Shown one piece after another: positions 43,808 to 64,000 of a DNA stretch of 64,000 nucleotides (position 1 is the first letter of the stretch; every line of letters starts with the position of its first letter). The notes beneath the pieces were generated by a model. It ran no database searches and was not told the origin of the DNA. It saw only the letters and a list, made by a program, of their open reading frames with translations. Location: positions 1,054,001 through 1,118,000 of the forward strand of contig JAXQJY010000027.1 of assembly GCA_037042185.1 (NCBI GenBank). Direction: 5' to 3'. The DNA is from Sordariomycetes sp. S80-01Y. Its lineage: Eukaryota; Ascomycota; Sordariomycetes. Both the position numbers and the translations under genes were made by a program.

Positions 43808-44452
43808 ATGGGTCACTCTTACGGAAAGCGTGCGGGCACCCGCGTATGTCGAACCTCGAATTTACGATCCGACGACCATTGCTAACTTTCTGCAGTATGC
43901 CTTCAGCAGGGACTTCCGCAAGAAGGGTATGATCAACCTGAGCACCTACTTGCGCCAGTACCGGTTAGTAGCGACGATGACGAACCACGGCGAGAACGAA
44001 GGGCTGACGGAAGGACAGTGTCGGTGACATCGTAGACATCAAGGTCAACGGTGCTCAGCAGAAGGGGTAAGGCATCCGCATTTCGATGGTGGGGGTTTAC
44101 CGAAGTTGACAATTTGGACAGTCTTCCCTACAAGGTCTACCACGGCAAGACCGGTGTCATCTACAACGTCACCAAGTCCGCCGTCGGTGTCATCATCCAC
44201 AAGAAGGTCTGGGGATCCTACATCGAGAAGCGCATCAACGTCCGCCTCGAGCACATCCAGCCCTCCGGCTCCCGTGACGACTTCCTGCGCCGAGTCAAGG
44301 AGAACGCTCAGAAGAAGAAGGACGCCCGCGCCGCCGGCGAGTCCGTCCAAGTCAAGCGCCTGCCCGCCCAGCCCCGTGAGGCTCACACCCTGTCGCTCAC
44401 CGACAACCCGCCTGAGACCCTCGTCCCTCTGGCGTACGAGACAACGATTTAG
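43808..44452 (+). CDS. RPL21: 60S ribosomal protein L21 (eL21)
   Basis: Exons are 43808-43843, 43896-43963, 44019-44066 and 44122-44452, giving 160 aa, the exact family length. Introns are 52-55 nt; the second has a GTTAGT donor and the CTGAC branch. The product reads M-G-H-S-Y-G-K-R-A-G-T-R, then Y-A-F-S-R-D-F-R-K-K-G, V-G-D-I-V-D-I-K-V-N-G, and Y-K-V-Y-H-G-K-T-G, all hallmark eL21 sequence. It is a structural protein of the large ribosomal subunit. Early introns in the first third of the gene are typical of fungal ribosomal protein genes. It is divergently paired with RPS9. Confidence 0.96.
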
Positions 44453-45239
44453 AGTGGGATTGGGAAAAGTGTTGTGGTTCTTGCGTCTATTTTCTTGAGG
44501 TGTTACGTCCGGATGGGAAAGAAATGAGCATGGCCAGGGTCTGCATTTCGGTGTCTATAGGGAATAAGATGACCCAATGATACCTCGTCTGCCGCGCACT
44601 TGTTGTGATGATGAATGACGAGGCCGCAACGGTCGTCCAAGCTGCTAACACGGCTCTTGTGAACCAGCCGAGGGCAATTAGGACGAGACCATGTCACATT
44701 GCTCTGAAAGTAGGTGTCAGGGGAGGCAGCTTTGCAGCCTGCTTGGCGGCCACCTCCCGCCACAGCAGCCTTCTAGTGCCTTAGAATAACATCAAATCCT
44801 CATTGAGGCCTGAATCTATGCTTGTTGCCTATCCCTTAATCGTAGCCCATACTGTTCCTTAACAATGGCATTGGTGAAAACCATGAGTGAGCGCCGAGCG
44901 GCCCGGAATTTCCAACCCCCGGCCGTACGGCGTGGCGTCCCACCATGACGGAGCTCCACGCAGGCTTGCTGCCCAGCCACGGAGCTGTCGCATGCTGATG
45001 AGTTGCTTCGTCAACGGCTGACGACACTTAACCTTCCCACTTCCCGTCGCTATCGTTTTCTTCTCTGTCTTTCGGCCGAGCACATTCCCTGCATACACGT
45101 CAGCGATTTCTGCTTGATCGAGCTACACTCCCGGCATCTGCGCTCTGGGGTGTGCTCCAACTTTAAAACACCCGCCAACCTGGTGCACCCCTTTATCGTT
45201 GCTCCAACCGCAGGCGAGCTGCGGTCTCGAGAGCCCGCA
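44453..45239. other. RPL21 3' flank and SLA2 promoter
   Basis: The 787 bases lie between tandem genes. No coding frame is supported. The part just before 45240 is C-rich with CTTTA and CACCC elements, consistent with the SLA2 leader. Confidence 0.45.
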
Positions 45240-48200
45240 ATGACGTCCCTTCGAAGCACGGAGCATACGAAGTTAGTCTCTGATCATAAACGATGCAGCT
45301 GCGAGCTGTTGGCTGTGACCGGCGCACGCTGACCCTTGCGCGACTAGGACCGACCAGGAGCTTGCCATCAACATCCGCAAGGCTACCAACAACGAAGAGA
45401 TCTCTCCGAAGCGCAAGCATGTGCGCGCATGCATTGTGTACACATGGGACCACAAGTCTTCGCAGGCCTTCTGGGCGGGCATCAAGGTGTAAGTGTTACC
45501 GGGTGCTTAACAAGTTTCATGCGCTGACTGTGTTCAAGCCAGCCCGTGATGGCGGACGAGGTGCAGACCTTCAAGGCCTTGATCACGATCCACCGAGTCC
45601 TTCAAGAAGGCCATATTGTGGCTCTTCGCGAAGCCATGGCGCACCGCAACTGGATCGATAGCTTGAAGCGCGGCATGACCGGCGAGGGTGTCCGTGGCTA
45701 CGGCCCCTTGATCCACGAATACGTCTACTACATTCTTGCGAAGCTCGCCTTCCACCAAGCGCATCAAGAGTTCAACGGCACCTACGAGTACGAGGAGTAT
45801 ATCAGCTTGAAAGCGATCAACGACCCGAACGAAGGTTACGAGACGATCACCGATCTCATGGCGCTGCAAGATAAGATTGAACAATTCCAAAAGTTGATTT
45901 TCTCCCACTTCAGGCATGTCGGGAACAACGAGTGCCGGATCTCTGCGCTGGTGCCCTTGGTCCAGGAGAGCTACGGTATCTACAAGTTCATCACCAGCAT
46001 GTTGCGGGCGATGCACTCCAGTAAGCAGCCTTGGTGGAACGACTCAAACTTGTACTGACCATTTCAGTCACCGGCGACGATGATGCACTGGCCCCTTTGC
46101 GCGAACGATACGATGCCCAACACTACCGTCTCGTCAAGTTCTACTACGAGTGCTCCAACCTCCGGTATCTCACCAGCTTGATCACCATTCCCAAGCTGCC
46201 TCAAGACGCACCCAACCTGTTGGCCGAGGATGAATCCGCACCGGCGCTACCAGCCCGCCCAAAGCAGGAAATCGAGCGCCGGCCGACACCCCCGGTCGAA
46301 CCCAAGACCGACGAGCCAGACGAGATCTCAGAGTTCTGGAAGGGCGAGTTGGACCGACAGAACCGGGAATACGAGGAGCAGCAGCGGGTCATGGAGGAGA
46401 GGCAGCAGGCGCAAATGCTTGCGCAACAGCAGGCTCAGATGCAAGCGCAGCGTGACTTCGAGGAGCAACAACGGCGTCTGGCAGAGCAGCAGCAGCGAGA
46501 GCAGGAGGCGCTGATGGCACAGCAATCACAATGGCAGACACAAGGCCGTCTTGCTGAGCTGGAGCGGGAGAACTTAAATGCACGTGCCCAGTACGAGCGC
46601 GATCAGCTTATGCTCCAGCAGTACGATCAGCGAGTGAAGGCTCTCGAGGGTGAGCTCTCGCAGATCTCCAACAGTCTGGGCCAGCAAATGTCGAGCAGAG
46701 ATGAGCAGATCCAGGCTCTTCAAGAGCAGGTCAATACGTGGCGAACCAAGTATGAGTCTTTGGCGAAGCTGTACTCCCAGCTGCGTCAGGAGCATTTGGA
46801 TCTACTCCAAAAGTTCAAGGCTGTGCAGCTCAAGGCTGCCAGCGCACAGGAGGCCATTGACAAGCGGGAGAAGCTGGAGCGCGAGATTAAGACGAAGAAC
46901 CTGGAGCTGGCCGATATGATAAGGGAGCGAGACCGCGCACTCCATGAGAAGGACAGGGGCGCGGGTGCCAACAAGGACGAACTCGAGAAGCTCCAGCGCG
47001 AGTTACGTATGGCCAACGACCGGGCTGACAATCTCGAGCGTAGCAAGGGCAACGAGCTTTCCATCATGTTGGCCAAGTACAACCGCGAAATGTCTGACCT
47101 CGAGGAGGCTCTGCGTACCAAGTCGAAGCAACTCGACGAGGCGCACTCCCGGGCTCGTGACGGCAGTTCAGACTTGGAGCAGCTGCTGCGTGACAAGGAG
47201 GAGGAGCTTGAGGTGTACAAGGCCGGCATGGACCAGACACTGGTGGAGCTGCACAACTTGCAGAACAACCAGGGCGAGACCGATACAGCGCTGGACGGTC
47301 AGATCGACGCTCTTATCATGGCCAACTTGGACAAGATCAACGACATAATCGACTCCGTCCTCCAGTCTGGCATCGCCCGCGTAGACGACGCGCTCTACGA
47401 GATGGACTCGAATATGCAAGCTGGTAACCAGAACGCCTCGCCCTCTTACGTGCTTTCACAGATCGAGAAGGCAACATCGAGCGCGATGGAATTTGCGACG
47501 GCTTTCAACAACTTCATTGCAGACGGACCTAATGCTACCCACGCTGACGTGATCAAGGCAATCAGCGTCTTTGCTGGTTCTATCGCCGACGTTTGCAGCA
47601 ACACCAAGGGTCTGAGTCGTCTGGCTACCGATGACAAGAAGAACGACTCGCTCATGGGCGGCGCGCGCCAAGCAGCACTTTCTTCGATCAACTTCTTCAG
47701 GGGCCTCCAGAGCTTCCGCTTGGAAGGGATGGAGCCTCTGCAGAAGACCGACGTGGTCATCAACAGCAACAACGACGTGCAGATGAACCTTCAAAAGCTC
47801 AACAAGATGGTGGAAGCTTTTGCTCCGGGCTTTGGCAAACTCACTAACAACAAGGGCGACATTGGTGATCTCGTCGACTCCGAGCTCAACAAGGCAGCCG
47901 ACGCCATCGCCGCCGCGGCCCAACGCCTTGCAAAACTCAAGAACAAGCCCCGCGACGGCTACTCGACGTACGACCTCAAGGTCCACGACTCCATCCTCGA
48001 CTCTGCACAGGCCATCACCAACGCCATCGCAGAGCTCATTCGCGCCGCCACCAAGACGCAGCAGGAGATCGTGCAAGCGGGCCGCGGCTCGTCCTCCCGC
48101 ACAGCCTTTTACAAGAAGAACAACCGCTGGACAGAGGGTCTCATCAGCGCAGCAAAGGCTGTGGCGTCTTCTACCAACACTCTCATCGAGACGGCAGACG

Positions 48201-48882
48201 GCGTCCTGTCCAACCGTAACTCGCCCGAGCAGCTCATCGTGGCCTCGAACGACGTCGCAGCGTCGACTGCTCAGTTGGTGGCAGCGAGTCGGGTCAAGGC
48301 CGGTTTCATGAGCAAGAGTCAGGATGGTCTGGAGCAGGCTAGCAAGGCTGTCGGTGCGGCGTGCCGAGCGCTCGTCCGCCAAGTGCAAACCATGATCAGG
48401 GACCGGAATCAGGAAGACGATCAGGTGGATTACTCCAAGCTGGGAGCGCACGAGTTCAAGGTGCGCGAAATGGAGCAGCAGGTATGTGAATCTCAATTCT
48501 CCTCATCGCCCGCCCCCAGCACCTCTTCGATCCCAGCAGACCGCCTCGTCGGGGATGGCCTAAACGAGCACACCCTTGGCCTCCGGGTACTGGAGTCAAG
48601 CTGTTCTCACTGTGGAACAAGTCAACGCCATGGGCAAGACCCTTTACCCGCACCAAGGCAGTCTGTGTGCCGAATGCCAGTCACTAGCGCCAACACTTCT
48701 TTTCCCCTCCAGAGGCGTCGCCGAGACTCCCTTCCCCCATACTGCCCACCCCACACAGTGAATCATGGTGTAGCTGACACTTTCGCGTCTTGTAGGTGGA
48801 AATTCTGCAGCTGGAGAACTCACTCGCGTCGGCTCGTCACCGCCTGGGCGAGATGCGCAAGATTTCATACCAGGAGGATTGA
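45240..48882 (+). CDS. SLA2: Endocytic adaptor SLA2 (ANTH + talin-like I/LWEQ)
   Basis: Exons are 45240-45271, 45348-45488, 45539-46020, 46068-48481 and 48796-48882, giving 1,051 aa, the usual length. The first four introns fit GT..AG with correct phase; the last is unusually long (314 nt). The N-terminal ANTH domain (about 12-270, including R-K-H-V-R-A-C-I-V-Y-T-W-D-H-K) binds phosphoinositides. A Pro-rich linker and a long Gln/Glu-rich coiled coil (about 340-640) follow. The C-terminal I/LWEQ module binds F-actin. The last exon ends L-G-E-M-R-K-I-S-Y-Q-E-D. Sla2 links clathrin coats to actin in endocytosis. Its gene is the classical flank of the mating-type locus in Pezizomycotina, as here. 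Confidence 0.95.
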
Positions 48883-51800
48883 GGTACGCGAAGCGGTCTT
48901 GAAATTGTGTGTTGTATTTCTGGACTCTCTCAATATATCACATATCACTGTGCCCCTGTTGAGGCAGGGGCTGCATAATCTATTGCCAACGTCTTTGCCT
49001 CCTGCAGGAGTCCCTTCTTTCTAATTCAGTTTGGTGACATCCCTTCAGGTTTAAATGGGCTGCGGCCATGTCGTGAGAGACTGAGAAGGGGGGTGAGCCT
49101 TGCTGCAAGGCTGGCACTTCGGCTTCGGATCGCGTCTAATCCCTTCCCGCATGCCTACCAGACCGTCGCGCGGTGAAGCGCCGGAGACGGCGATGCGGCA
49201 GGTTCGAGGAACGGGATCGAGGTGCTCGCATGGCATGCTTCTGCTGCCCCAACTTCTCCTATTCAAACCCCGCTCTGTCTGTTCTGAACCTCTGATCCGC
49301 GCCAAGCGTTCCCATGTCTGCCCAAAAGCTACCGCGTCGCCGCGCGCTTGTGCGGCATGCAACCATCACAGACCTCCCTGCTATCGTGTCTTAATTTTGG
49401 CACTGGCAGGCCCCCCCTCGCCCCCGGGACATACTTCGTATTCCCCGCCCCCAATGGTGATGCAGCTTGCCTAATCCAATCTGTGTCTGCCACACGTGTT
49501 CGGGTATTACACCAGTGACGAGGCGAGGAAGCCACGAGGGTCTGTACAGTGACGACTGAAGATCCTCGAAAGGGACACTGAGCAGCAACGGCGGCCACCT
49601 CCACCACACCCCTACCGGTTGACAGCTGACGGCTCTGGGGGTCGGTAGTCGGTGCTGGACAGGAGAAGGTTGGCGGTAGGGGAACAATGAGCGGCGCCCC
49701 CGGTGGCTTGCCCCTTGGTATTCAATTGGACAGCCTCCATTCTGGGCGTGAGGCTGGCCCTGACCTGGCTATGGAGTTGCGAAGACAGACTAGACTGGAT
49801 ATCGGTCGGAGAGAAGCGAACGGGAAATGTTCGTTCCGTGATCTAGTGGCTGGGCAAGATGCGTTTGGCTTTGGGAGCTTGTGCTGGTTCTTTTGATCAC
49901 TGAAGTTGGAGATCCCGATGACATTGACAATGTGGCCACTCAGCGCGGTTCCATCGTTCGAAAACCTGACAGTCCTGGAACTATTAGATTTGAAACCCAT
50001 CTTTGCATTAATCTAGCGCCTCCTCGGGGAGTTTATTCGTCCGATCACTCTGTTTTGTCTCTTCCACTGTGGTGCAGGGTAGCGTCTGATTGCTGGCCAT
50101 CACGATTTGATCTACCACAAGACATGTCAAGGAGCAGCGTAATTTCGACCTAAAACTGGATGACCTGATCATGATTCTGATGCGACATCACCTCGTCTCG
50201 TTCGGGGAACACTTGCGAATCTGTCGGCTCCGTAAGCCGGGTAGTTGGTTGGGGTGATGGGAGGGGAGGTGATGAGTTTCCGGAGTGTTGGTGAACCCCG
50301 ATCCTGGGACTTGGTCAAAGTCAAACTTGGACACGACCGCGCCCCCTGATACACCCACGAACCCGGTCGATATCGCGCTGTTATAGGCCTGGAAGAGCAG
50401 CTCGTTAGTGTGATGAATGTCATACTTTCCCGCGGGCAACGTTCACATTCAGTAAGCCCGGCGCTCAAGTGATCAGCCTGGCATGCACGGTGTCACTCAC
50501 TCCCGGCGACCACTGTTTGCAACGAACCTCGATGCGGCTCCGAAGGCCCTGCCATTTTAGACGAGCGCCACTCGCGTCTTCATTGGGCGGCGATTTGCAA
50601 GGAGCGGCGTCATCACTTCCAGCGACTGACCAACAGGTCCTAAGCCGCGTGCCGAACGGATGGAGCCGTCGCTCTGGGCTTTTCACGAAGCTCAGTAGCT
50701 GAACTTGACCAGAGAGAAGAATATGCGGGCACGGAGAGATTACCAAAGAAAGAATCACAGTGGCTTGAGGATTCTGCAAAAGAAACGCATCCAATGTCTC
50801 GACGTAACCAAGAATGTGAAAGGTCCTAGTCGGACCAAAAGAGAATAGCGCACCGGGATATTTTTGAGCAGACGCGCTGCTGTCTCTCCTGCCCGAGAAG
50901 TCACGGTGCACAGACCACCGTCTTCTCCAGCACGAGAGCATCTCTTGTTCGACAACTTGCAAACCTCGAGCACCCAGGCCCGTCACAATACATCGCTCTT
51001 CCCGCCAACGTGGCCCCGGACGCCCTCGAAACCCCTTCGCTTCTCCGACCTTCATAAGCGCTGGCTGGAAATAGTGACGCGCTTGAGTTGCAGTGCAGTC
51101 TGAGCTTCTGGGCAGGTGAGGTGGTGAGTGGAACTGGCAGTGGCCTAGCGTTGACACCCCAGACTGACGCCGCTCGATTGCCGCCAGCCAGCAGAACGCT
51201 ACCTCACACTTTCGCGCGCACGCCCCCCTTTGGTCGCAGATCCGGTGGCAGATCTTCCCCACCCCGCCCACCAACATCCCTGTCAGGACAGCGGATTGCT
51301 TCCGATCGCTAGACCCTGGCCTTCCTGCTCCGAGGTGTTCCAGATCTGAGAGGGCGAGCACCAAGGCTCGCAGAGGCTGCGTGGCTTCGGCCATCGAGAT
51401 GCCGCGCCAGCCTGCTCCGCAAGCGACTGGGGTTGAAGCGTTGCGGCGTCACGGCCTGCAGATGACAGGCCAGTGGGCGAGTAATTGTGAGCTTTGAGTT
51501 CATCTTTGACGACACTAGACGTGGGCTAACGCCTTTCTACAGCTTGACGTGAGCAATCCATCTCAAACTCAATCTCGGACCCCCCTGGACCAGAGCCGCA
51601 GAAGCAGGCCTCCGTTCTCCGGACCCGAAGCTTGTGTCTCGGAAGCCCCTGGACATTCATAACTGAGCGGACAACCAAACTAACTTGGTATTCCCCTGCG
51701 AGAAGAGAAGACCAGGCCTGATGCAGCATCAAAGGGCTACCAGAAAGCCGGAAATTCGACGGGGATCGACTCACCGGTTTCCAATGTCGTGGACTCGCCC

Positions 51801-53681
51801 AGGATCATTCCAAGCAAGGCAAGGAAGACTGGCGGGTTCATTGGCTCGATGTGTCATTGAGTCGAAATAGAAGAAGCAATGCAGCACCAGACGCAGTGAA
51901 GGTCCAGCTGTGCGCCCGTCGCGAAGCCGCTGTTCCAAACATGGCATTTGTCTGTTCCCCTCACCTGACGAGATTGGTCCGCTGCAGAGTCCCTCCCCCC
52001 ATCTTCGTGGGCCTACGCTCTGAGTCGTCAATGTGTTTCTTCAGTTGCAGGCCGGAGGGAGCACGCACCTCACCACGGCCACGTTGCGAGCGTTGCACAG
52101 TACCTGGCACACGGCACCTTGAACTTTTGCTGCCCACTGGCGTCCTCGCGGTCCTGGAAAACATGTGGGCGAGACCGCTCGTGCGACCGCCCGTTTCGAT
52201 CTGTCACTTGCAAGCCCTGAGATCAGAGGTCGTACTGCCGACGGCACAGACGTGCAACGCAAAAGTGCGTCAAACGTTGCATCAGCCCTACAGACTGCCT
52301 TGGCCTATTCGCAAACAACTGCCACAGGACGCTCCCTGGTCTGCAAGGTAATTATGGACCTTCCTCTTCTTCGCTTCAAACAGGGGCCAACCCTCCCGGA
52401 CTTGGCCGAGGCACCGTCACCCTTTTCCCTCCCGCCGCTTCGCCGTCAGGACTGGCGTCTACTGGAGCAGATGGCATGCCGGAAAACGTCTAACGCCTTT
52501 GCCGTGCGGCGGCCGCTCCCCACTGTTATTCTCCGAAAGCACATCACTGGCAGCTCACCGACACTAGTATACGAGGTGGACTGGAGAAGTGGGTGACTCT
52601 CGCTTGCGGAGCCGGTGTCGACCCCTGTCAGTAGATCTGGAGGCGCCAAAGTTGCGATAAACATGGAGTCTGAGCTCTCACGATGCTCGCCACACGAGCA
52701 CTCAGGTGCAGGCAGCCCTCACCTGGCGGGCGCATCAAGCTTAAAGCATAACTCCACGGTCGAGGAGGCTCCGTGTAAAGTCAAATTGAATATCAGCGAT
52801 CAGTGCATGTGTACGCGTGTACAACCAAGTCATGACGTGACGTCTCAGCCTCTTCCTTGCTTGCTTAGGCAGAAGGAAAAGGAATAGTGAAGTTAAGCAA
52901 GACGCAAGAGTCACATTCAATAAGTTCTCGACTGCCAGCAGCTGCTCGCAAGGCATCCGCAGGCGCCGTGGTCCAGACGACGAGCAGATGCTCCTCGACC
53001 TGACCAGACCAAAAACTGCCAGGACGCCCCTCTGCCAGACCAGCCAGAGCCCCACGCGACAGGGGTCACGATGGGTGGGTGCTCAAACTGCAGGACAGAT
53101 CCACACCGCACTTGTCAAACAGGCGCATGGTCCGTGCGCAAGGGGGGCGTGCGTGTGTCCCGCACTAGGGAGCCCCCTGGTCGCCCTCTAACTCAGCCCC
53201 ACCGCATTTAGACGACACTCTCTCTGGCAGTTTGGACCCTGGCGCCGCGCGCGCCGCGAGCGAGCGAGAGGGCACAGGCGCTTGCGGTCGCTGGGGGAGG
53301 GGGCGCCTGGCAGCTGCGCCGGAGACGCGATGTGAGCCCAAGGTCAGAGGTTCTTGACGAGCGGAGCGAGGGGCTCTCCCGGTGGAGGAATCCCCCCTGA
53401 GCTGGGTTGGGTTGAGGCGAGGGGCCTGGGCGCGTGGATGGGATTTGGCCTGGGTGCTGGATTGACGCTGGCTGTTTGGCGGGTTTAGGGGAGGACTGTC
53501 TGCTGGGAGGGCTTCACGATGATGGGGAGTTTGCAATTTGGGATTTGATGTGATTCTGAACTTCGTTACGTATCGCATTACCCGGCTCTTGGGAGCATCC
53601 TTCTTAAACAGATCTAACCATCATAAAAGACTCCAAGTGATATCCCCATCGATTGCAATCACAGCATCGCCTTAGTGACTT
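48883..53681. other. 4.8-kb region without a recognisable gene between SLA2 and MAT1-1-1
   Basis: Frames are plentiful but none is convincing. The longest, 50465-51394 (-), has 309 codons, mixed composition and no motif; 48576-48761, 49100-49474, 51851-52351 and 52165-52596 are similar. No HMG or alpha-box remnant was seen. GC-rich, GAGCGAGCGAGAGGG-like sequence occurs near 53256-53290. The left idiomorph border may fall here, but a single strain cannot show it. Confidence 0.45.
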
Positions 53682-54919
53682 TCAATACAGAATGTTGAAG
53701 TCATTCCTCGGTGAGTAGGGCGGGCTGTCTGCGTTGAAAAACTCGTCTGCCGATGTCAGCAACTATGGATTTCAAGAACGGTGTCTACAAGAACATACTG
53801 TGAGTCGGCAAAGGAGTATCTGAAATGAAGCTGTCGAAGCCAATCATGGCATTGAGGTCGTGAGAGCTTCCAACGTCGTAGCAATCGTGCTCAGTGATGC
53901 CGTTGATGTCCATTGGAATATTCAGATTCGGGTCCTTTTGCGGTTGCAGATTCGAATAGGGAAAGCACCTGGGATCAAGTGGGCGATGGAGAGGAATGTG
54001 CTGAATATCCGAAAGGGTTTCAACATCATGAACCTTGTACCCTGTTTCCCGCATGATGCTCTCGTCGTAGTGTTGTCCGAACAGCTTCTTAGTAGCTTCA
54101 CTAGGATCCTCCCGAAGAATATTCATGAAGTCAAGCTTCTCGATCGTACTGTCGACATGAACTCGAGGGACGGATACTGAGCTCGAAGTCATCAGGGCAT
54201 TTCCATTGGCACCCATCTTGCGGATCAGCTCTGAGCTCCAGCTTGGCAGGAAGCCAACTTTGAGGACTGCCAGAAGTAGGTCGAACTCGGTTGTAGGAAA
54301 CTCCTCAGACTCAAGAAGCCTGAGATCTGGCTTGGCAGAGGAGTCATGTCGGATGAGCTGGGGAACTTCCCCTTCTTTTCGCTGAACGTGCCAGCCAAGT
54401 GTAGAAAGATAGCTAGCGGGATTCGTGATCTTCATCAAAGGGCAGGCGATGTCAAGAAAGTTCGAGAGAGAAATCTTTTCTTTGCCAATCTCATCGCGAA
54501 CGAATGAGTAGACCTTGGCGACGAGAGCCCAACGAGAATGGTGGGGGTCTGGGCCCCAGAGGCTGGAGAAGAAGCCGGAGATGAACTTCTGAGGAATCTC
54601 GGGGAACATCCTGAGGTAATAGGCTAGAGCCAAAATGTTAGAAAGGTTTGCCATCGCAAGAGAAGCGGAAAATCTTACTGCGAAACGCTATGAACGCATT
54701 GAGAGCTTTCTTGACCTTTCTTTTGGCGGTAATGGTGGCAGAAGGATTGATTGTAACCTGGACTGCATTTGATCGTGCCAGACGCTGAGCCTCCGCAGTG
54801 TCGAGGTGCTCAAAATACCGACGAGCAAGCTCATGAAGAGTCTTGTCTTCCATGAAGTCAAGAAGATTGAGGGTCGGGACAGCCGAGAGACGCTCGATGA
54901 GCTCGATTCGAGTAGGCAT
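53682..54919 (-). CDS. MAT1-1-1: Mating-type protein MAT1-1-1 (alpha-box transcription factor)
   Basis: Exons are 54919-54679, 54623-53799 and 53746-53682, giving 376 aa. The alpha box covers about 66-165: K-V-K-K-A-L-N-A-F-I-A-F-R-T with Y-Y-L-R-M-F-P-E, then W-A-L-V-A-K-V-Y-S. The first intron (55 nt) sits at the conserved F-R/x-Y-Y site of the alpha box. A second intron (52 nt, CTGAC branch, GGCAG acceptor) joins P-T-H to the ending N-E-F-F-N-A-D-S-P-P-Y-S; without it the frame stops early at 53785. MAT1-1-1 is the master regulator of MAT1-1 identity, driving pheromone and receptor genes in the nucleus. It points towards SLA2. Confidence 0.94.
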
Positions 54920-55279
54920 CGTGGAAAGCAGTACTGGGATGATCGTTGAGTGAATGGCGAGAACAAGGAATTCTGCATAGATGAAGTCAAAGGAGGAGAA
55001 AAGAATATGGAGAGAAGAGTGTTGCGGATCCCTGGTTTTGGTAGTGGAGGTGGCCAGTGCTGACTCTGCTCGAGTTGAGTTGAAAGTGAGAGTAAGTTGC
55101 CTGGGCTCGAGCAGCCACCCGGGATTTCTGGAGGTAAGGTGGCGCCACGCACCACCTCTGGACTTAGCCAACCCGCCTCTATGATACCCTCGTGGGGTCT
55201 ACGAAGGCATAAATCTACATTGAATTGATACACTGAAAATACTAAACGCACCTTGCATATGTCTGCTAGGCTTCTCTAA
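54920..55279. other. Short spacer between MAT1-1-1 start and MAT1-1-2 end
   Basis: The 360 bases must hold the MAT1-1-1 promoter and leader and the MAT1-1-2 terminator (both genes -). A longer in-frame extension of MAT1-1-1 upstream uses only a TTG start and shows no conserved sequence, so it is not accepted. Confidence 0.5.
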
Positions 55280-56689
55280 CTACTGAATGATCTCGCCTGC
55301 TTCGATACCTCCAAAGACCATCACCCACAAGTCTTCCTCAATGGGCTCCGGCTCACGGTCAAATCTGAAGGCCCTTGCCGTAACTGTCATGAAAGACAGG
55401 GTGAGGTTGCCGCGAAGATCGGTAATTGGGCGGTAGGCCTGGAAAGCAACGGTCATGTTAGCTTAATACTCAAGCCAAGGATAACAGTTTCCACTGACCA
55501 AAGGAACCACGTCTAGATAGTCCTGGATAACGTCGTACATCTCTGTGGCATTTTCCTCATCAACTTCTGTGTTCGGGTACCACAGGCCAGTTGTCTTTGC
55601 GAGCTGGCAGTGCTGCTGATCCGATTCATCTTTGTCAGGCATGATCCTCGAAAACCCACGCCTATCCATGCCTTCATAGATGTGGTGATACAGCCCTTCG
55701 AATACTTCGGCAAACTTGATCGCGGTGCTAGGGAAACGGTGCATGATCTTGTTGCCATCATCTTGTTCAGCGGCGCTGGTGAAGATGGGTTGGTTCTTGT
55801 TCCTGAAGAACTTGTTCCAGGCTGATCCTGGAACTTGCTTTCCAGGGTGCCAGTAAGCAGGGTCCTCCCAATCTAATCGCCCAACCTGTACCAGTATCCT
55901 TCGCCCATCTCTCCGCATTCGAATTTCCTCTGAATTGGCACCGAACCGTGCACCGGGGCCGCCATCAGCCCACTTTCCATGAGTACGCGCGACTTGCCAT
56001 GTGGACTTCAGAAAGGCCCAGATTGACACAGAAGGTGGTGCAAAGGGGACACTTTTGTCCCAACAACTTTCGAGAGACGGCCCAAAACCTCGATAAATGA
56101 GATAAGCCCCACACACCACGGTCGTGACCGAGTTGGCGACAAAAACGGCGTCGCGAAGCTTGATGTTTTCGCATTCCTCAACTATGCTCCAATTTTGTGT
56201 GGTCAACAACATCGCCAGCAGGCCAAGGTTTCCTGAGTGCGTTCCAGTGTCGGAGGCAGGATCGTCGTTGACATTTCGAGTTAGGTATGGTGAAACTTCG
56301 CGAAACCATTCTGAAATCATCGCTGAAATCAGAAGAATAGGATCTCCGCATATATCGTAGCCAACAGCGGCGAGGAGTCGAACAGGTCGGGCTTGAAGTG
56401 CGGAAGGCTGGGATAACATCGAGCGAACTACAACCATGGTGTACTCAGCGACATCTTTGGCGACCCATTAGACCCTTATGATACTTCCAGAATACTCTTA
56501 ATTGAATAGGTTTGATATTCAGAGATGGGCGAAAGAGACATGCTTACCTCTAACAGTGTCTTGTTTGCCTGCATACTCGGAGAGTACGACTTCTAATGCT
56601 CTCGCTCGAATCTCCTGAACGGATTCTAGTGGCAGCTGTAATCGTTCCGAAGTGTCAAACAGAGGCTCGAACTTGAGAATGTTTTCCAT
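55280..56689 (-). CDS. MAT1-1-2: Mating-type protein MAT1-1-2 (HPG/PPF-type)
   Basis: Exons are 56689-56548, 56454-55499 and 55438-55280, giving 418 aa. The diagnostic Y-W-H-P-G-K motif lies at about 249-254 within V-G-R-L-D-W-E-D-P-A-Y-W-H-P-G-K, and P-F-A-P-P lies earlier. The second intron (60 nt, GTCAGT donor, TTTCCAG acceptor) is needed: without it the frame ends at 55463, while the third exon reads cleanly to E-I-I-Q. The first intron (93 nt) uses an AAAG acceptor, weaker than the rest, so that junction is less certain. MAT1-1-2 is confined to Sordariomycetes and near relatives and is needed for fruiting-body or ascus development in several. Its biochemistry is unknown. Confidence 0.9.
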
Positions 56690-57124
56690 TTCGATTAATT
56701 ATGCGGCACCAAGAAGAAGGCCCTGTGGTTGTTTCTTTGCGAAGTAGATGGTGCATGAGTGCAAACTCACATTGGAAGTGTGGAGTTTGCGGCTGGCTTT
56801 TCTGTAGGATAAGGTAGGAAAAGGACTGGAGACAAAGAAAATCTAACTCAGAGGTCGCTTGAACGGGTCTCAGGCACTGATCGCAAGTTCGAACGCATGG
56901 GTTGAGTTCCAGCGCGCAGGTGCCGGCAGCTGAAGCTACCTACATGTTTCCAGGTCATCTAATGTACCGGCGATACAGGCGCTAGCCCTGCTGTGGAAGG
57001 CACATGAGCCTCAGTGCTCATTCACTGTTCGTAAATACCACTGAACCTCTAATTTTCATGCCTTCTCCCATAACGACTGCACTCTCAAGGAATGAATGCC
57101 ACTTAACGTTGACACACGGCTACA
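56690..57124. promoter_or_regulatory. Divergent promoter of MAT1-1-2 and MAT1-1-3
   Basis: The two mating genes start 435 bases apart on opposite strands, so joint regulation is possible. No specific binding site could be assigned by eye. Confidence 0.45.
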
Positions 57125-57878
57125 ATGGATCCTCCGAATCCGCAAACACTTCCGCATCCTCCGCGACCGTTCTATGAACACCCTATCACTTTCGTTAAGA
57201 GTGAAAGCCAAGGCGAAGTGCATGTATTTCTCCCTGACTCTTTCGACTTGGAGTTTGTGCGTGAGATCGCAAACAATTTTAGGTACCGCCTCCGATTCAA
57301 AGAAAACGAAATGTTCCAGGAGTCTGACATGAGATTTAGCCATAGCATTCAGCAACAGGTGTTGGTCTATCACGATTCTGACCGTAACAAGTTTCGCCTT
57401 TGCCCGGGATCCAATGGTCTTCTCTCAGAGCGAGGTCAGACGGGACAGTTTGTCTTCATCTGTGGTAAGTGACATCGACATTTCGATACATCCATACTAA
57501 TAATGAGCAGACATGATCGATCCCAACCGACTCCAAGGCCTCAAAAGACTACTCGAACCATCGACCGAGGCAGCCAACGATGCTCGTCAAAACCCATCTG
57601 ATGAACGTATTCCACGCCCTCGCAATAGCTGGATATTGTACCGGCAAGCGAAGTCCAAAGACTTGAGCAAGCAGTACCCCGGAAAGACAGCATCAGAGCT
57701 ATGTAGGTTATTTTATTCATATGTGAATTATGGCTAACTCCTCCTAGCGACACTGATTTCTAAGATGTGGCATGAAGCACCCCAAGAAGAACGAGACTCC
57801 TGGCAGCTAAAGGCCAAGGAAGAAGACCGACTACACAAGGAAATGTATCCTTGGTACAAGTATACTACGCGAAAGTAA
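57125..57878 (+). CDS. MAT1-1-3: Mating-type protein MAT1-1-3 (HMG box)
   Basis: Exons are 57125-57464, 57511-57702 and 57748-57878, giving 220 aa; introns are 46 and 45 nt. The HMG box covers about 147-218 (I-P-R-P-R-N-S-W-I-L-Y-R-Q, then S-T-L-I-S-K-M-W and W-Q-L-K-A-K-E-E-D). The second intron splits a serine codon in the middle of the box, a position known for mating HMG genes. The R-N-S-W-I-L-Y-R form and its place next to MAT1-1-2 mark it as MAT1-1-3 and not MAT1-2-1, which usually reads R-P-P-N-A-Y-I-L-Y-R. It should bind DNA in the nucleus in support of sexual development. Confidence 0.92.
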
Positions 57879-58274
57879 TAGGCAGAGGAACGGCATACTT
57901 GCAGAACAACTCACAGCACATGGTGAAGTTCAAGAGCAAGCTTGGCATGAGGTTTATGTCATATTGTCGAGACTGAAGCGAAGAACAATGCCATAGAGCT
58001 TAGGCTGCATTAAGACGTTTAGACTTGGCGATCTGCGGTGAGGATACTGGGCATCAGCTACAAACCTGAGCCGCTCATCTTCGCTCCAGAGCAATGCAAG
58101 CAAATTGCCAGAACATGACTGCTTAGGTTACTTTGGGACCGAGCGCCAAGTTGTGGTGGCAAGTAGTATTAAGTGTGACAGCAGTAAAAGCAACTACTTC
58201 GCCACTAAGGACATCATACAGACCCAAGGAGACAGTCGCAATCGATTGTGTACATGATTTGTGGTTGATCTACT
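57879..58274. other. Convergent 3' flanks of MAT1-1-3 and APN2
   Basis: This is a 396-base spacer with no gene. The right border of the idiomorph is likely in or near it, since APN2 is a conserved flank; comparison with a MAT1-2 strain would be needed to place it. Confidence 0.5.
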
Positions 58275-60423
58275 CTAATGAGCTTGAGACCCATTCCAGT
58301 CACTACTCCATATGAAAGTGCTGCATCTCCATTCAGAGTCTTTCTCCTTCTCACCGGACGGTCCCAGGGGCCGCGGACAAATGTAGAAGGACCTTCCTGG
58401 AACCAGAGTATTAGCTTCAGGTACGTAAAACAATAAGAACGACTTTCCCCGACAGATATGGACTTACCACTGTTTATACCTGGCTTTTTGGTGACTAGGC
58501 TGATACAAGGCTCGTCATGTTCGCAACGCGGAACCACTCGCTTGCCCAGCAATCTCGACCATGACTCTTTAGCTTCAATTGGGTCGAAGACTTTCTCTTG
58601 CGATCCACCAGGCCATTGACCGAGGGAAGCATTAGTCTGCGACACTGCGCTCGTCTTATGTGTCGAGGTCGACAATAGAGGCGTCCCCGACGTGGATGGA
58701 AGCGAAGACGAGCTTGAACCCAGGTTGGTGATTGACGACTGAATGTTGTCATCACTCCTTAGCGCAGGGTCGCGAGACTGGAGGAAGGCCTTCAGAGTCT
58801 GTTGTGTGGAAGGCCCCTTTGTCCTGCTACTACTACTAGCAGGGGTTGAGACTTGCTTTGAGCGCTTGAACCCAACGCGTGCATCTGGTGAGTCGTTTGG
58901 GCGCTTGGGCACCAGGACTTCTGACTTGCGGCAAATGGTTGAGCCTGAGTCAATAGTGTCACCAGATATTGTGACATCGGAATTGGCCACAGGGTTGGAT
59001 ACAGACTGTGGGAGAGACCGGTTGGCTGATGTATGGCCTGTATTTCCAGGCGATGAAGACGAGGAGGGGTTGTTGGATTTCTTTTTGAACATATCACGGA
59101 TGCTCTGCCGGCGGTCGAACTCCGGGATAAGCTTGGCGGACAAGCTAAGAAGGTCTTGCTGTGACCATTGACGCTGTCGTTGACCTTTGAGAAACATTCC
59201 GGGAGGATTGGCGATGTCCGAGAAAAATTCTCTTTCATGATCAAACTCCCTCTGTTCATATATATCTGCAAAGACCGGGCAATGATCTGAACCCATGAGG
59301 CCCTCTTGTATGTCAGAGCCGGAGAACCAGTCCTTTAGACCATCGCTGCAAAGGATGTAATCAATGCGACTCCCGTAATTTGCGGGACGGGTGTTTTTCT
59401 TCGTGTCCCAACAGGTATTCATACCTGGTCGGGTTGGATGAAACAGTCGAGTAAGATCCCATAGAACAGGCTGCTCTTCGTCCAAGTGCCGCACCTCAGT
59501 ATACTTGTCCCTAAATATGAGTCGGTTGAAGAGACGTCTTGCCGGCATAGAAGCCCATTCTTCCATGGTTATACCATCTTTGCGTATACTTTCTGCCACG
59601 TTGGATGAATCGAGCTGTGACCTAACCACGTTCAAATCTCCAGCGAGAACGACCTGCTTGCCTTCAGCGACTAAGTTCCGAATGCGAGCATCCAAAGCCT
59701 CCAGGAACCCAAGACGGAAATCATCACGGGTCTCATCTCGATTTGCGGGGCTGTAGACGCCAAGCAGCACGAATCCGGGGAACTCGAGGATGACGCATCG
59801 GCCTTCTGAGTCAAGAATTGACTCCTCGACAAGACCTGAAAGCTGTCCTACTTTCGGGTACCCGCCGATTCTCTGGTCAGTAGGAAGATCCCGAAACCGA
59901 GCCGTGGCCTTGGGCGCTGCCAATACCCCTGTGATACCTTCCTCAGCTCGAATCGGCGCACAGGTAGCGTTGCGAGTGTAGATGGCGACTCCGGAATACC
60001 CTACTAATGATGAGCTATGCTATGAGACAAAATCGAATCGAACACACCTTTTTTGTGTTTCGGCAGACTGAAGTAAACATCCCATCCTGGGACTAGAACC
60101 ATGTCATCACGAAGATCTTTGCGTTGGATCTTGAGCTCCTGCATAATTACAATATCTGCCTCAAGCGTTTCGAACATAGCCTAGAGCTAGTCAGTCAACT
60201 GGTGCCCCCGGGCTCAAACTTCAAAGGAGGCACTAGCCTGGAATGTCCGATTTTCACGCCATGGCTGGTATGAGAAGGGGTTCCTCGAAGCTGTAAGCCA
60301 GAGATTCTACATTGGCTTAAACACATACCTGATGCCATTTACTACTGAGGTCAGCATTGCTCCAAGCATATAAATGTACGATACGAAAACAATACCATTC
60401 CATGTTGTGATTCTGAAGCCCAT
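58275..60423 (-). CDS. APN2: AP endonuclease APN2 (ExoIII family, Zf-GRF)
   Basis: Six exons: 60423-60396, 60341-60329, 60283-60238, 60180-60048, 60000-58468 and 58396-58275, giving 624 aa. The ExoIII-type nuclease domain opens M-G-F-R-I-T-T-W-N-V-N-G-I-R; Glu44 in M-Q-E-L-K is the metal ligand, with G-D-L-N-V and G-S-D-H-C-P later. A serine-rich linker and a GRF zinc finger (F-Y-I-C-P-R-P...W-R-C) end the protein; the last intron must be removed to read the finger. Exon 2 has only 13 nt, and intron 3 (60237-60181) seems to start with GC rather than GT. Role: repair of abasic sites and 3' blocks. It is a standard MAT-locus flank. Confidence 0.92.
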
Positions 60424-60884
60424 AGCTGTGCCGTCGAGGTTACAGGCAGCGTGAAAACCTCCAACGGTGGCTTGAGGGGAGAGAGAGCGCCATGGACTCC
60501 GCGGAGGCAAGAAATCTGAGCCTTTAAGTTGTAGCTTGCATAGAATGTTCAGAACCAAATTATGTCAATTAACAGAGCGTGTGGCGGACTCTGTATTGTC
60601 TGGTGCATTACAATCGTTCAGAGTTAAGGTGGAAGGTTTGTCTGGCCGTAATCAAGTAGGGTACTGGAGCGTCATTGCGCGCGGATAGTGTCTCCACCGA
60701 GCTCATGGGTGAGGCTAGGTGCTGCGACACGCCACAGACGCCAAATCACGTGCTCTCAAAATCTTTCTGCCTCAGGATCTAGGCATCAATAATTCGGTTC
60801 CCACATCTCATTCGACAATGACCTCAAGCAACTGCCTAACTTTCCAACTTCAATTGCCAACGATAACCACCCGAAAATCTCACG
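60424..60884. promoter_or_regulatory. Divergent promoter of APN2 and COX13
   Basis: The two start codons lie 461 bases apart on opposite strands. The COX13 leader is A/C-rich, ending CGAAAATCTCACG before the ATG. No gene lies here. Confidence 0.45.
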
Positions 60885-61561
60885 ATGTTCGCCGCACGAT
60901 CCGCACGCGCTGTCCCGCGCATCTCGCAACAGCTGCGCGCCCCCGTTCAGCGTCGCTTTGCCAGCGGTAGCGCCAACGAGTTCATCAACGAGCGCCAGCA
61001 CATCAAGGAGCATGCCAAGGGCACCACTGGTACGCACTACACATCGAAATGGTCCGGGTACGAATGAGAGCACATTCACTGACCAGAAACAGAGCTATGG
61101 AGGAAGATCTCTATCTAGTACGTTCCTCATCATCACACGAAACGACCGGGAAATGTGTCGTACGACATACGATGCGATATGCCGGACGCTAGAACCACTG
61201 AAGTCAGCTTACTGACAACATATAAGCGCTGTCGGCCCGTGCCTGATTGCTGCTGGAGTGAACGCTTGGTGGCTCTGGAATGCTCACTGGGAGCACTGGG
61301 CACACATGCCGCCTCTGGAGGAGCGCACCGAGTACGCTTACCAGAACATCCGCACCAAGAACTACCAATGGGGAAATGGAGACAAGGTAAGCCAATATCG
61401 CCTCTTAACGCTAATGTTCCGATACTGACACACTCTAGACGCTGTTGTACGTTAAATTCACCTACCCGACTAACCCGAATTCAGAGGCTCCGTAACAAGA
61501 ACTAACCTCGCGGAACAGCTGGAACGACGACGTCAACTTTCACCGCAAGGACAAGGTCTAG
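60885..61561 (+). CDS. COX13: Cytochrome c oxidase subunit VIa (COX13)
   Basis: Five exons: 60885-61029, 61087-61117, 61227-61386, 61439-61446 and 61519-61561, giving 128 aa. The fourth exon is only 8 nt but keeps the frame and joins G-D-K to T-L-F-W-N-D-D-V-N. The N-terminus is Arg/Ala/Ser-rich, fitting a mitochondrial import signal. E-L-W-R-K-I-S leads to one membrane helix (about 60-80: V-G-P-C-L-I-A-A-G-V-N-A-W-W), then H-W-E-H and R-T-K-N-Y-Q-W-G-N-G-D. It is a nuclear-encoded subunit of respiratory complex IV in the inner membrane. COX13 beside APN2 is the conserved right border of Sordariomycete MAT loci. Confidence 0.93.
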
Positions 61562-62880
61562 ATCTTAAGAGTTGGCAAACTCAATGATCGTTAGATTCAT
61601 TGCTGGCGGTAGGATAAGGATTATCTGTACATCCTCCTAGGCAATAGACACCAATACATGTTTCTTTTGTTTCGAACCTATAACCTCGAATGCTAAAGCG
61701 CTCGGACTACTGGGCTCCAGTCGTTTATCGAATCTCATGTGATTGATCATGTGCTGCAATCAGAGGACCGCCGTACGCCCTCTCCCCGGCAGATTATTGA
61801 AATCGTTCGTCAAGCACTTGTCTACAGGTGAGGCTGCGAAGATCGGCATGATTTATGTCGTCACGATTTCCACGGTGGAAGTCCTCCCAACTAAACACAG
61901 CTATGGACAAACTTTGTCTCGTGACGGTACTTGTAGAAACGCGGCTGGAACATAAGCTAGACCTCAATGTGTATAACACGCGCACGAAGTGCACTTCCAA
62001 TTGTAGGCGTACAAGGAATAAAGCTTGCGCGCACATGCGAACTTGATGCTGGCTACCTCATGCGTAACAGGACTTATCATCGGATCGGAAAGGCAATCTT
62101 GACGCCGACTGATGTCAAGAAACATCGGATAGAGCCGTCCGGCATTCAGGGATATGGCGAGATTCAGTACTCCAAACGGACTCAGCCAATGATATGCTGA
62201 GAAGTGAGTCCTGTTGGCGCCAACTGTGCTGCGTTATGCACGTCGCTGGCTGCCGGCGTTTAACAAGCGTCCCCCGTTGGCCCAATTTCCAGACCGGTGA
62301 TCACAGTCAAGGCTACTTACCTCCCACCAGCGGCTGTTTCTGTCAATCGACATTGATGATAGGTATTACGGTGACCTCAGAGCGTGTTGCAGCGCCCGAA
62401 TGCACATTCTATCCAATTTTCCGAATAACCGTCCCTTGTTCGTGGCATCGTAAGTGCGATGGTCAGCCTACCGTAGGTCACATGCAATTGGTTGCGACCG
62501 GATTAGGCACGACCAACAGCCAACTACCTGGCTACCAACAATCAAGACAGCACTGGAACAAGATGACCCCCTCCCCCACCTCTGGCCCCCCCAACCACAC
62601 CTCGAACTCTTCTTTCCGAGCTGCGCTTCCCTCTTCGCCCGGAAGCGAGCTGGTTCTGCTTGCGGTTTGATAGTTCGTCGCATGCATCCCTTTTGGTTTT
62701 GCTATCTTTCGGTACCTTTTCTCGTCTCTTCATGGCTTCGACTATCATTGAGCTTTGAGCATATACGCCCGCTGCGCCTGGCCAGTAGATGAGCGAGAAG
62801 AACGGGGGTTGTTTGTGTGCCCTACCGATGTACACTACGCGGTCAGCCCTCTGGACAATCACTCGAGAAGTTCGGTCAAG
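61562..62880. other. 1.3-kb gap between COX13 and the amidase gene
   Basis: No supported gene; small frames (61743-61955, 62194-62670) lack any family. Near 61670-61720 the minus strand holds a GGTTCGAAAC stretch and a TAGTCCGAG stretch reminiscent of tRNA B and A boxes, but the arms do not pair (see rejected items). Confidence 0.45.
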
Positions 62881-64000
62881 ATGCGCATCGGGTGTTTACA
62901 GTTCTCTCCCCAGGTGGGAGACATAGAAAACAATCTTAACCGTGCTGATGCGGTCTTGTCAAAAGCAAACCCTGATGAGCTGGACCTTCTTGTGCTCCCC
63001 GAGCTGGCTTTCTCTGGTATGTGTGCCCAAGAGCTAGCCTTCTGCTGAGCCCTCTCAGTACAGCCTTGAATCGGGACTGATATGTCAGGATACAATTTTC
63101 GGTCTTTACAAGATATTGCGCCGTTTTTGGAGCCATCTGGATCTGGAATCTCATCTTTGTGGGCTCGGACTATGGCGCTCAAGTACAATTGCACCGTGAC
63201 AGTTGGGTATCCTGAGAAGGTGGACGTCTCTTCGAATTGGCCTACCGGACCAGAATATTACAACTCGACTATCGTTGTGAACGGAGATGGCGAAACAATA
63301 GCGAACTACCGCAAGCGCTTCCTATACTACACTGACGAATCTTGGGCTCTGGAGGGGGATCAAGGTTTCTATGAAGGATGCATTCCTGGTTTAGGCAACA
63401 CGTCGATAGGGATATGTAAGTCAGGGTTCTCGTTGTCCGGAGATAACCGCTAACTTGTGTAGGCATGGATTTGAAGTATAAACTCCTTCTGCTGTGCGAT
63501 TCGCACTCGCTAACTGATTCAAGCCCGTACAAGTTCGAAGCACCATGGCACGCCTTTGAGTTCGCATTCCATGTGTTGGAAGTTGAGTCAAATTTGGTCA
63601 TTCTTTCTATGGCATGGATGACGAGAGAAGAACGTCGCAGATATACGAGGATGCCGAATGAGCCCGACATGGAGACCTTGACGTATTGGGTGACCCGGCT
63701 TGAGCCCTTGATACGATCAAACTCAAAAGATGAGATTGTGGTCATTTTCTGCAATCGCACAGGCGTCGAGGACGACGTTACTTATGCTGGCACTAGTGCT
63801 GTAATCGGGATTCTTGATGGAGAGGTCAATGTCTACGGATTGCTAGGACGGGGTGAGAAAGAGCTCCTTGTGGTGGACACAAACAACCCACCATATGCCA
63901 AGTTGTTGTATCGGCCCCCGGAGCAAGGAGCTCGGGCCTCTCCGGGAAAGTTGGCCAAACCCAGCGAACCCGCGAGCCAAGAGGAGCAAAAACCTCCCGC
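62881..64000 (+). CDS. NTA1: Protein N-terminal amidase, NTA1-like (nitrilase family), cut by window end
   Basis: Exons are 62881-63016, 63089-63415, 63463-63475 (13 nt) and 63524 to the window edge. The nitrilase triad is in place: Glu41 (L-V-L-P-E-L-A-F), Lys121 (N-Y-R-K-R-F-L) and Cys155 (I-G-I-C-M-D-L-N-P-Y-K-F-E-A-P-W). The tiny third exon carries M-D-L and its removal of a 48-nt intron recreates the conserved N-P-Y-K-F. Nta1 deamidates N-terminal Asn/Gln so that proteins enter the Arg/N-degron pathway. The window ends in a charged region after P-S-E-P-A-S-Q, so the C-terminus is unknown. Confidence 0.9.

Follow-up and report, generated by a model that had tools for sequence, protein, structure and literature searches.

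A 64,000-base stretch of the Sordariomycetes sp. S80-01Y genome (the window; positions 1,054,001 to 1,118,000 of contig JAXQJY010000027.1, here labelled C10) carries a MAT1-1 mating-type locus, and we put the probability that the locus is correctly identified and the strain is thus of the MAT1-1 mating type at about 95%. The locus is canonical and ordinary, and as such routine for the field. Its three genes, encoding an alpha-box transcription factor (MAT1-1-1), a protein with the His-Pro-Gly (HPG) motif (MAT1-1-2) and an HMG-box protein (MAT1-1-3), are found in the order and on the strands SLA2(+), MAT1-1-1(-), MAT1-1-2(-), MAT1-1-3(+), APN2(-), COX13(+). The original prediction had placed three intact MAT1-1 genes at 53682-57878, with SLA2 on one side and APN2 with COX13 on the other, and had read from them both the mating type and a position within the Sordariomycetes. 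The genes, the flanks and the mating type were borne out, and the Sordariomycetes fit the gene content and order. The spliced models are open and their limits agree to the base, with the MAT1-1-1 stop codon (minus strand) ending at 53682 and that of MAT1-1-3 ending at 57878. Pfam domain matches identify the flanking genes on both sides and alpha-box, PF17043/HPG and HMG-box proteins are all present. Gene content and order fit the descriptions in PMC3583454 and PMC5608430, and the same arrangement is described for Sordariomycetes in PMC13401452.

Gene models were obtained with a script that allowed intron lengths between 40 and 129 bases and applied a loose filter for donor, acceptor and branch sites. 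Two introns were predicted for each of the three MAT genes, and all re-spliced models were open up to their stop codons. In case of MAT1-1-1, the selected model was the longest of 11 and the spliced protein matched PF04769 (MAT alpha) with 161.2 bits (cut-off 28.1) over profile positions 19-193 of 194. The score was 128.1 bits with exon 2 alone and rose to the full value once the exons were joined. A conserved intron position in the alpha box is described as characteristic (PMC3961304), and the alpha box analyzed here is likewise interrupted by an intron, which may lie at the same position. A match of MAT1-1-1 to a solved structure (E 0.0013, 19 residues, a designed protein) was taken as a chance hit. 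The MAT1-1-2 model, with introns at 56547-56455 and 55498-55439, was the longest of 29; its spliced product matched PF17043 with 78.7 bits (cut-off 26.3), and the locus was the only MAT1-1-2 match in the assembly. For MAT1-1-3, with intron 1 at 57465-57510 (plus strand), the two halves of the HMG box scored 20.1 and 21 bits separately and 52.5 bits when joined, covering positions 1-69 of the 69 positions of PF00505 (cut-off 25.4). The selected 220-residue model was the second longest of 182. We discarded the longest model (221 residues) in its favour because the shorter one retains the complete HMG box and has an intron that interrupts a serine codon. Two of the predicted introns are thus backed by protein profiles, since joining the adjacent exons raises the alpha-box and HMG-box scores.

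Fitted introns might force reading frames open, and we therefore scored the exons individually for codon use. Seven long reading frames (6680 codons) from parts of the window beyond the MAT interval served for training, and the spacer between SLA2 and the MAT genes provided the background. For all nine exons, the chosen frame had a positive score that was the highest among the six frames. The third exon of MAT1-1-1 (20 codons) passed narrowly with 4.4 bits compared with a 99th percentile of 3.8 bits for random spacer stretches (22 codons), and the margin was also narrow for the first exon of MAT1-1-2 (47 codons), at 4.2 bits versus a 99th percentile of 4.1. The two longest exons are longer than any stretch sampled in the spacer control but bear Pfam domains. 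Because the training frames were picked by hand and the spacer served as both background and control, the codon test represents a consistency check and not a blind test.

Table 1. Positions of the MAT1-1 genes, selected introns and neighbouring features in the window.
Feature	Position	Strand	Details
SLA2 (cytoskeleton assembly protein), main exons, left flank	45528..48640	+	ANTH, I/LWEQ; first exons would lie further upstream
SLA2-MAT1-1-1 spacer	48700..53650		Single copy; left limit approximate (last short SLA2 exon outside the model)
MAT1-1-1, alpha-box transcription factor, 376 residues	53682..54919	-	Exons 54919-54679, 54623-53799, 53746-53682
MAT1-1-1 intron 2	53747..53798	-	GTATGT ... 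CTGAC ... CAG; chosen frame of the downstream exon scores best of the six
MAT1-1-1 intron 1	54624..54678	-	GTAAGA...TAG; within the PF04769 match
MAT1-1-2, 418 residues	55280..56689	-	Exons 56689-56548, 56454-55499, 55438-55280
HPG codons of MAT1-1-2	55841..55849	-	Read in the spliced protein
MAT1-1-3, HMG-box protein, 220 residues	57125..57878	+	Exons 57125-57464, 57511-57702, 57748-57878
MAT1-1-3 intron 2	57703..57747	+	Mid-box position in the HMG domain, within a serine codon
APN2 (DNA lyase 2), main exon, right flank	58217..60019	-	PF03372 Exo_endo_phos, 49.2 bits; N-terminal exons would lie further right
COX13 (cytochrome c oxidase subunit VIa), right flank	60885..61425	+	PF02046 COX6A, 88.2 bits

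Using the strain's own assembly (30,874,049 bases in 16 contigs), we searched for a second mating-type locus. Only one alpha-box match was obtained, namely the MAT1-1-1 gene described here, and a second alpha-box locus, which would have contradicted the original prediction, was not found. The statement in that prediction that no MAT1-2 gene was seen also held across the whole assembly: an HMG-box scan, a search with the MAT1-1-3 protein and two motif patterns yielded no MAT1-2-1. The HMG-box family scan, carried out with E values up to 10, returned ten matches, two being the MAT1-1-3 exons and eight belonging to other genes (C15:2294700, C11:1581801, C15:2697035, C15:1786680, C10:2091546, C6:60336, C3:23786 and C12:1434115). 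An intron across a serine codon within the HMG box is described as a marker of MAT1-2-1 in PMC3961304. When the reading frames were inspected, no mid-box break of this type was seen in any of the eight other genes; C11:1581801 and C15:2697035 showed breaks near the N-terminal edge of the box only, and C12:1434115 was the weakest match (14.5 bits), with the box itself being doubtful. Judging from the look of their frames, we take C15:2294700 to be a short, NHP6-like protein and assume that C15:1786680 and C6:60336 lie in an amine-oxidase-like and a protease-like frame, respectively. Another of the eight, C3:23786-24010 (minus strand), lies in an open frame of 433 residues, with the end of contig C3 about 24 kb away. 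Its weak HMG box (20.9 or 22.3 bits) ends in FPDYKYKPG, and the gene is neither MAT1-1-3 nor of an obvious housekeeping type.

Two motif patterns were used in addition. No match in the assembly (control: 0) was obtained with the pattern P-R-P-P-N-A-Y/F-I, in which S was admitted for R and which represents the beginning of the MAT1-2-1 box. The pattern for the end of the box gave 4 matches compared with 3 for the reversed control, one match being C11:1581801 and the other three lying in frames without an HMG box. The search with the MAT1-1-3 protein resulted in 3 matches, two of them MAT1-1-3 itself and the third again C11:1581801 at 30% identity. We rejected this gene (C11:1581801-1581989), the best candidate for MAT1-2-1. 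It covers profile positions 7-69 in one open frame without a mid-box intron, it reads PRPCN (PRPCN...AFILYR) instead of PRPPN, and its frame is 555 residues long. The gene appears to resemble the Ste11/FMF-1/PaHMG5 group.

Other components of the mating machinery were also found in the assembly. An STE2-type receptor at C9:786499 (274.8 bits plus a piece of 29 bits) and an STE3-type receptor at C8:791138 (152.9 bits plus a piece of 71.2 bits) were both recovered in pieces without internal stop codons. An alpha-pheromone precursor is encoded at C15:583261-584343 on the minus strand by an open frame of 433 residues with a hydrophobic start. It contains 12 repeats, 11 of WCERPGQSCW and one of WCERPGQPCF, together with KR and EAEA-like processing sites. 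Searching for the pattern WCxxxGxxCW gave 22 matches, 11 of which fall in this precursor, and the reversed control gave 1 and 3 matches. The peptide WCERPGQSCW was not found in the literature that we searched. Taken together, the MAT genes, the receptors and the alpha pheromone suggest that the sexual toolkit is in place.

Our best reading, although not proven, is that the species is heterothallic, and we consider this probable. The genome shows only one idiomorph, with no MAT1-2-1 among the ten HMG matches, and heterothallism is the usual conclusion from a single idiomorph, with species being labelled in this way in PMC10569646. The suggestion of heterothallism in the original prediction is supported with a reserve: a single mating type is seen in the assembly, and the need for a partner is something we infer from one strain. 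Judging from the protein families and the literature, MAT1-1-1 would set mating identity and switch on the type-specific pheromone and receptor programme, while MAT1-1-2 and MAT1-1-3 would act in later sexual development. The strain would then most likely mate with strains bearing MAT1-2 at the same place.

Several observations weigh against our overall reading of the locus and the strain. Exons 1 and 3 of MAT1-1-2, exon 3 of MAT1-1-1 and exon 1 of MAT1-1-3 are supported solely by coding score and splice sites, two of them narrowly. HPG and PPF are the two motifs named for the MAT1-1-2 protein, with the middle proline common to both (PMC3961304), and PPF is absent as three adjacent residues from the predicted protein, in which the motif residues may be spaced. 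Further, 5.8S ribosomal RNA (rRNA) had no match in the assembly at E 0.001 (39 of 980 candidates scored), which means that the ribosomal DNA is either missing from the assembly or was overlooked by the search. The absence of MAT1-2-1 holds for an assembly that may be incomplete and for searches that score the best candidates only. The evidence also comes from one strain of one mating type, and the limits of the presumed idiomorph are provisional.

The unmatched 5.8S rRNA bears directly on the idea of a homothallic fungus with MAT1-2-1 elsewhere in its genome, as an assembly that may miss sequence could hide such a gene, and in homothallic Clonostachys the MAT genes were located on separate short contigs in most strains (PMC13401452). 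Nevertheless, the eight HMG genes other than MAT1-1-3 lack the mid-box break in the frames read, the box-start pattern is without a match and the box-end pattern finds only the C11 gene and three frames without an HMG box, and we give homothallism hardly any weight. It is unlikely that the species no longer mates and keeps the locus for other uses such as asexual development, or that the locus is decaying. A fungus held to be asexual does keep MAT genes with roles outside mating (PMC13097639), but all three MAT genes have open reading frames, as does the alpha-pheromone precursor, and both receptor matches are free of stops, which argues against an asexual species without being decisive.

Very unlikely in our assessment is a self-sterile MAT1-1 strain of a species that loses MAT1-2, as in Chromocrea spinulosa and Ceratocystis. 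Self-sterile C. spinulosa is reported to carry all three MAT1-1 genes in an intact locus (PMC5608430), self-sterile Ceratocystis strains have lost MAT1-2 (PMC3961304, PMC13334188), and such a loss would be compatible with what is seen in one genome, where a single repeat copy would remain. However, the behaviour is rare, with five genera counted in PMC3961304. Within 44000-64000, just one direct repeat of at least 20 bases is present, consisting of two 25-base copies (80% alike) at positions 45381 and 62530. The copies flank the MAT genes at a distance of 17 kb, and we take the pair to be a chance occurrence, as repeats of this kind often are. The 115-bp and 260-bp repeats given in the cited papers are much stronger. 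As one copy is left after loss and no pair is expected, repeats represent weak evidence either way. Still more doubtful is a further lineage of this rare behaviour, in which one-way mating-type switching would have produced the strain as a self-sterile form, with self-fertile siblings carrying MAT1-2 beside the locus. A heterothallic species remains the reading that we prefer.

The left flank is identified as SLA2 by an ANTH match of 161.8 bits on 45528-46055 and by ANTH (46.1 bits) and I/LWEQ (165.1 bits) matches on 46025-48640. The spacer that follows (48700-53650, at most about 5 kb) matched only itself in the whole assembly. We rejected a hidden gene in this region, as no Pfam family was found at E 0.01 in the two frames scanned, 50465-51445(-) and 51722-52348(+). 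GC content was 54-59% in the spacer compared with 47-52% in the MAT genes and near 50% in the right flank (58-64 kb). The step in GC content is thus confined to the left boundary of the MAT genes. On the right side, the COX13 start codon (ATG) is at 60885 and the COX6A domain is in frame at 61216-61425. A carbon-nitrogen hydrolase (PF00795, 30.4 bits) was additionally seen to the right of COX13 at 63070-63450 on the plus strand.

In conclusion, our analysis assigns the sequenced strain to the MAT1-1 mating type, and the locus could be used for mating-type tests of further isolates. The presence of the sexual toolkit will be useful information if the species has no known sexual stage. Judging from the alpha-box sequence, the fungus probably belongs to the order Hypocreales. 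With regard to known systems, self-sterile C. spinulosa likewise combines an intact three-gene MAT1-1 locus with the lack of MAT1-2 (PMC5608430). When compared by gene content and order, the locus showed no notable difference from the MAT1-1 loci described for Clonostachys rosea, Chromocrea spinulosa and Grosmannia clavigera. These Sordariomycetes share all three genes, with a matching order wherever one is stated, and likewise have SLA2 and APN2 as neighbours, an intron in the alpha box and PF17043/HPG and HMG proteins.

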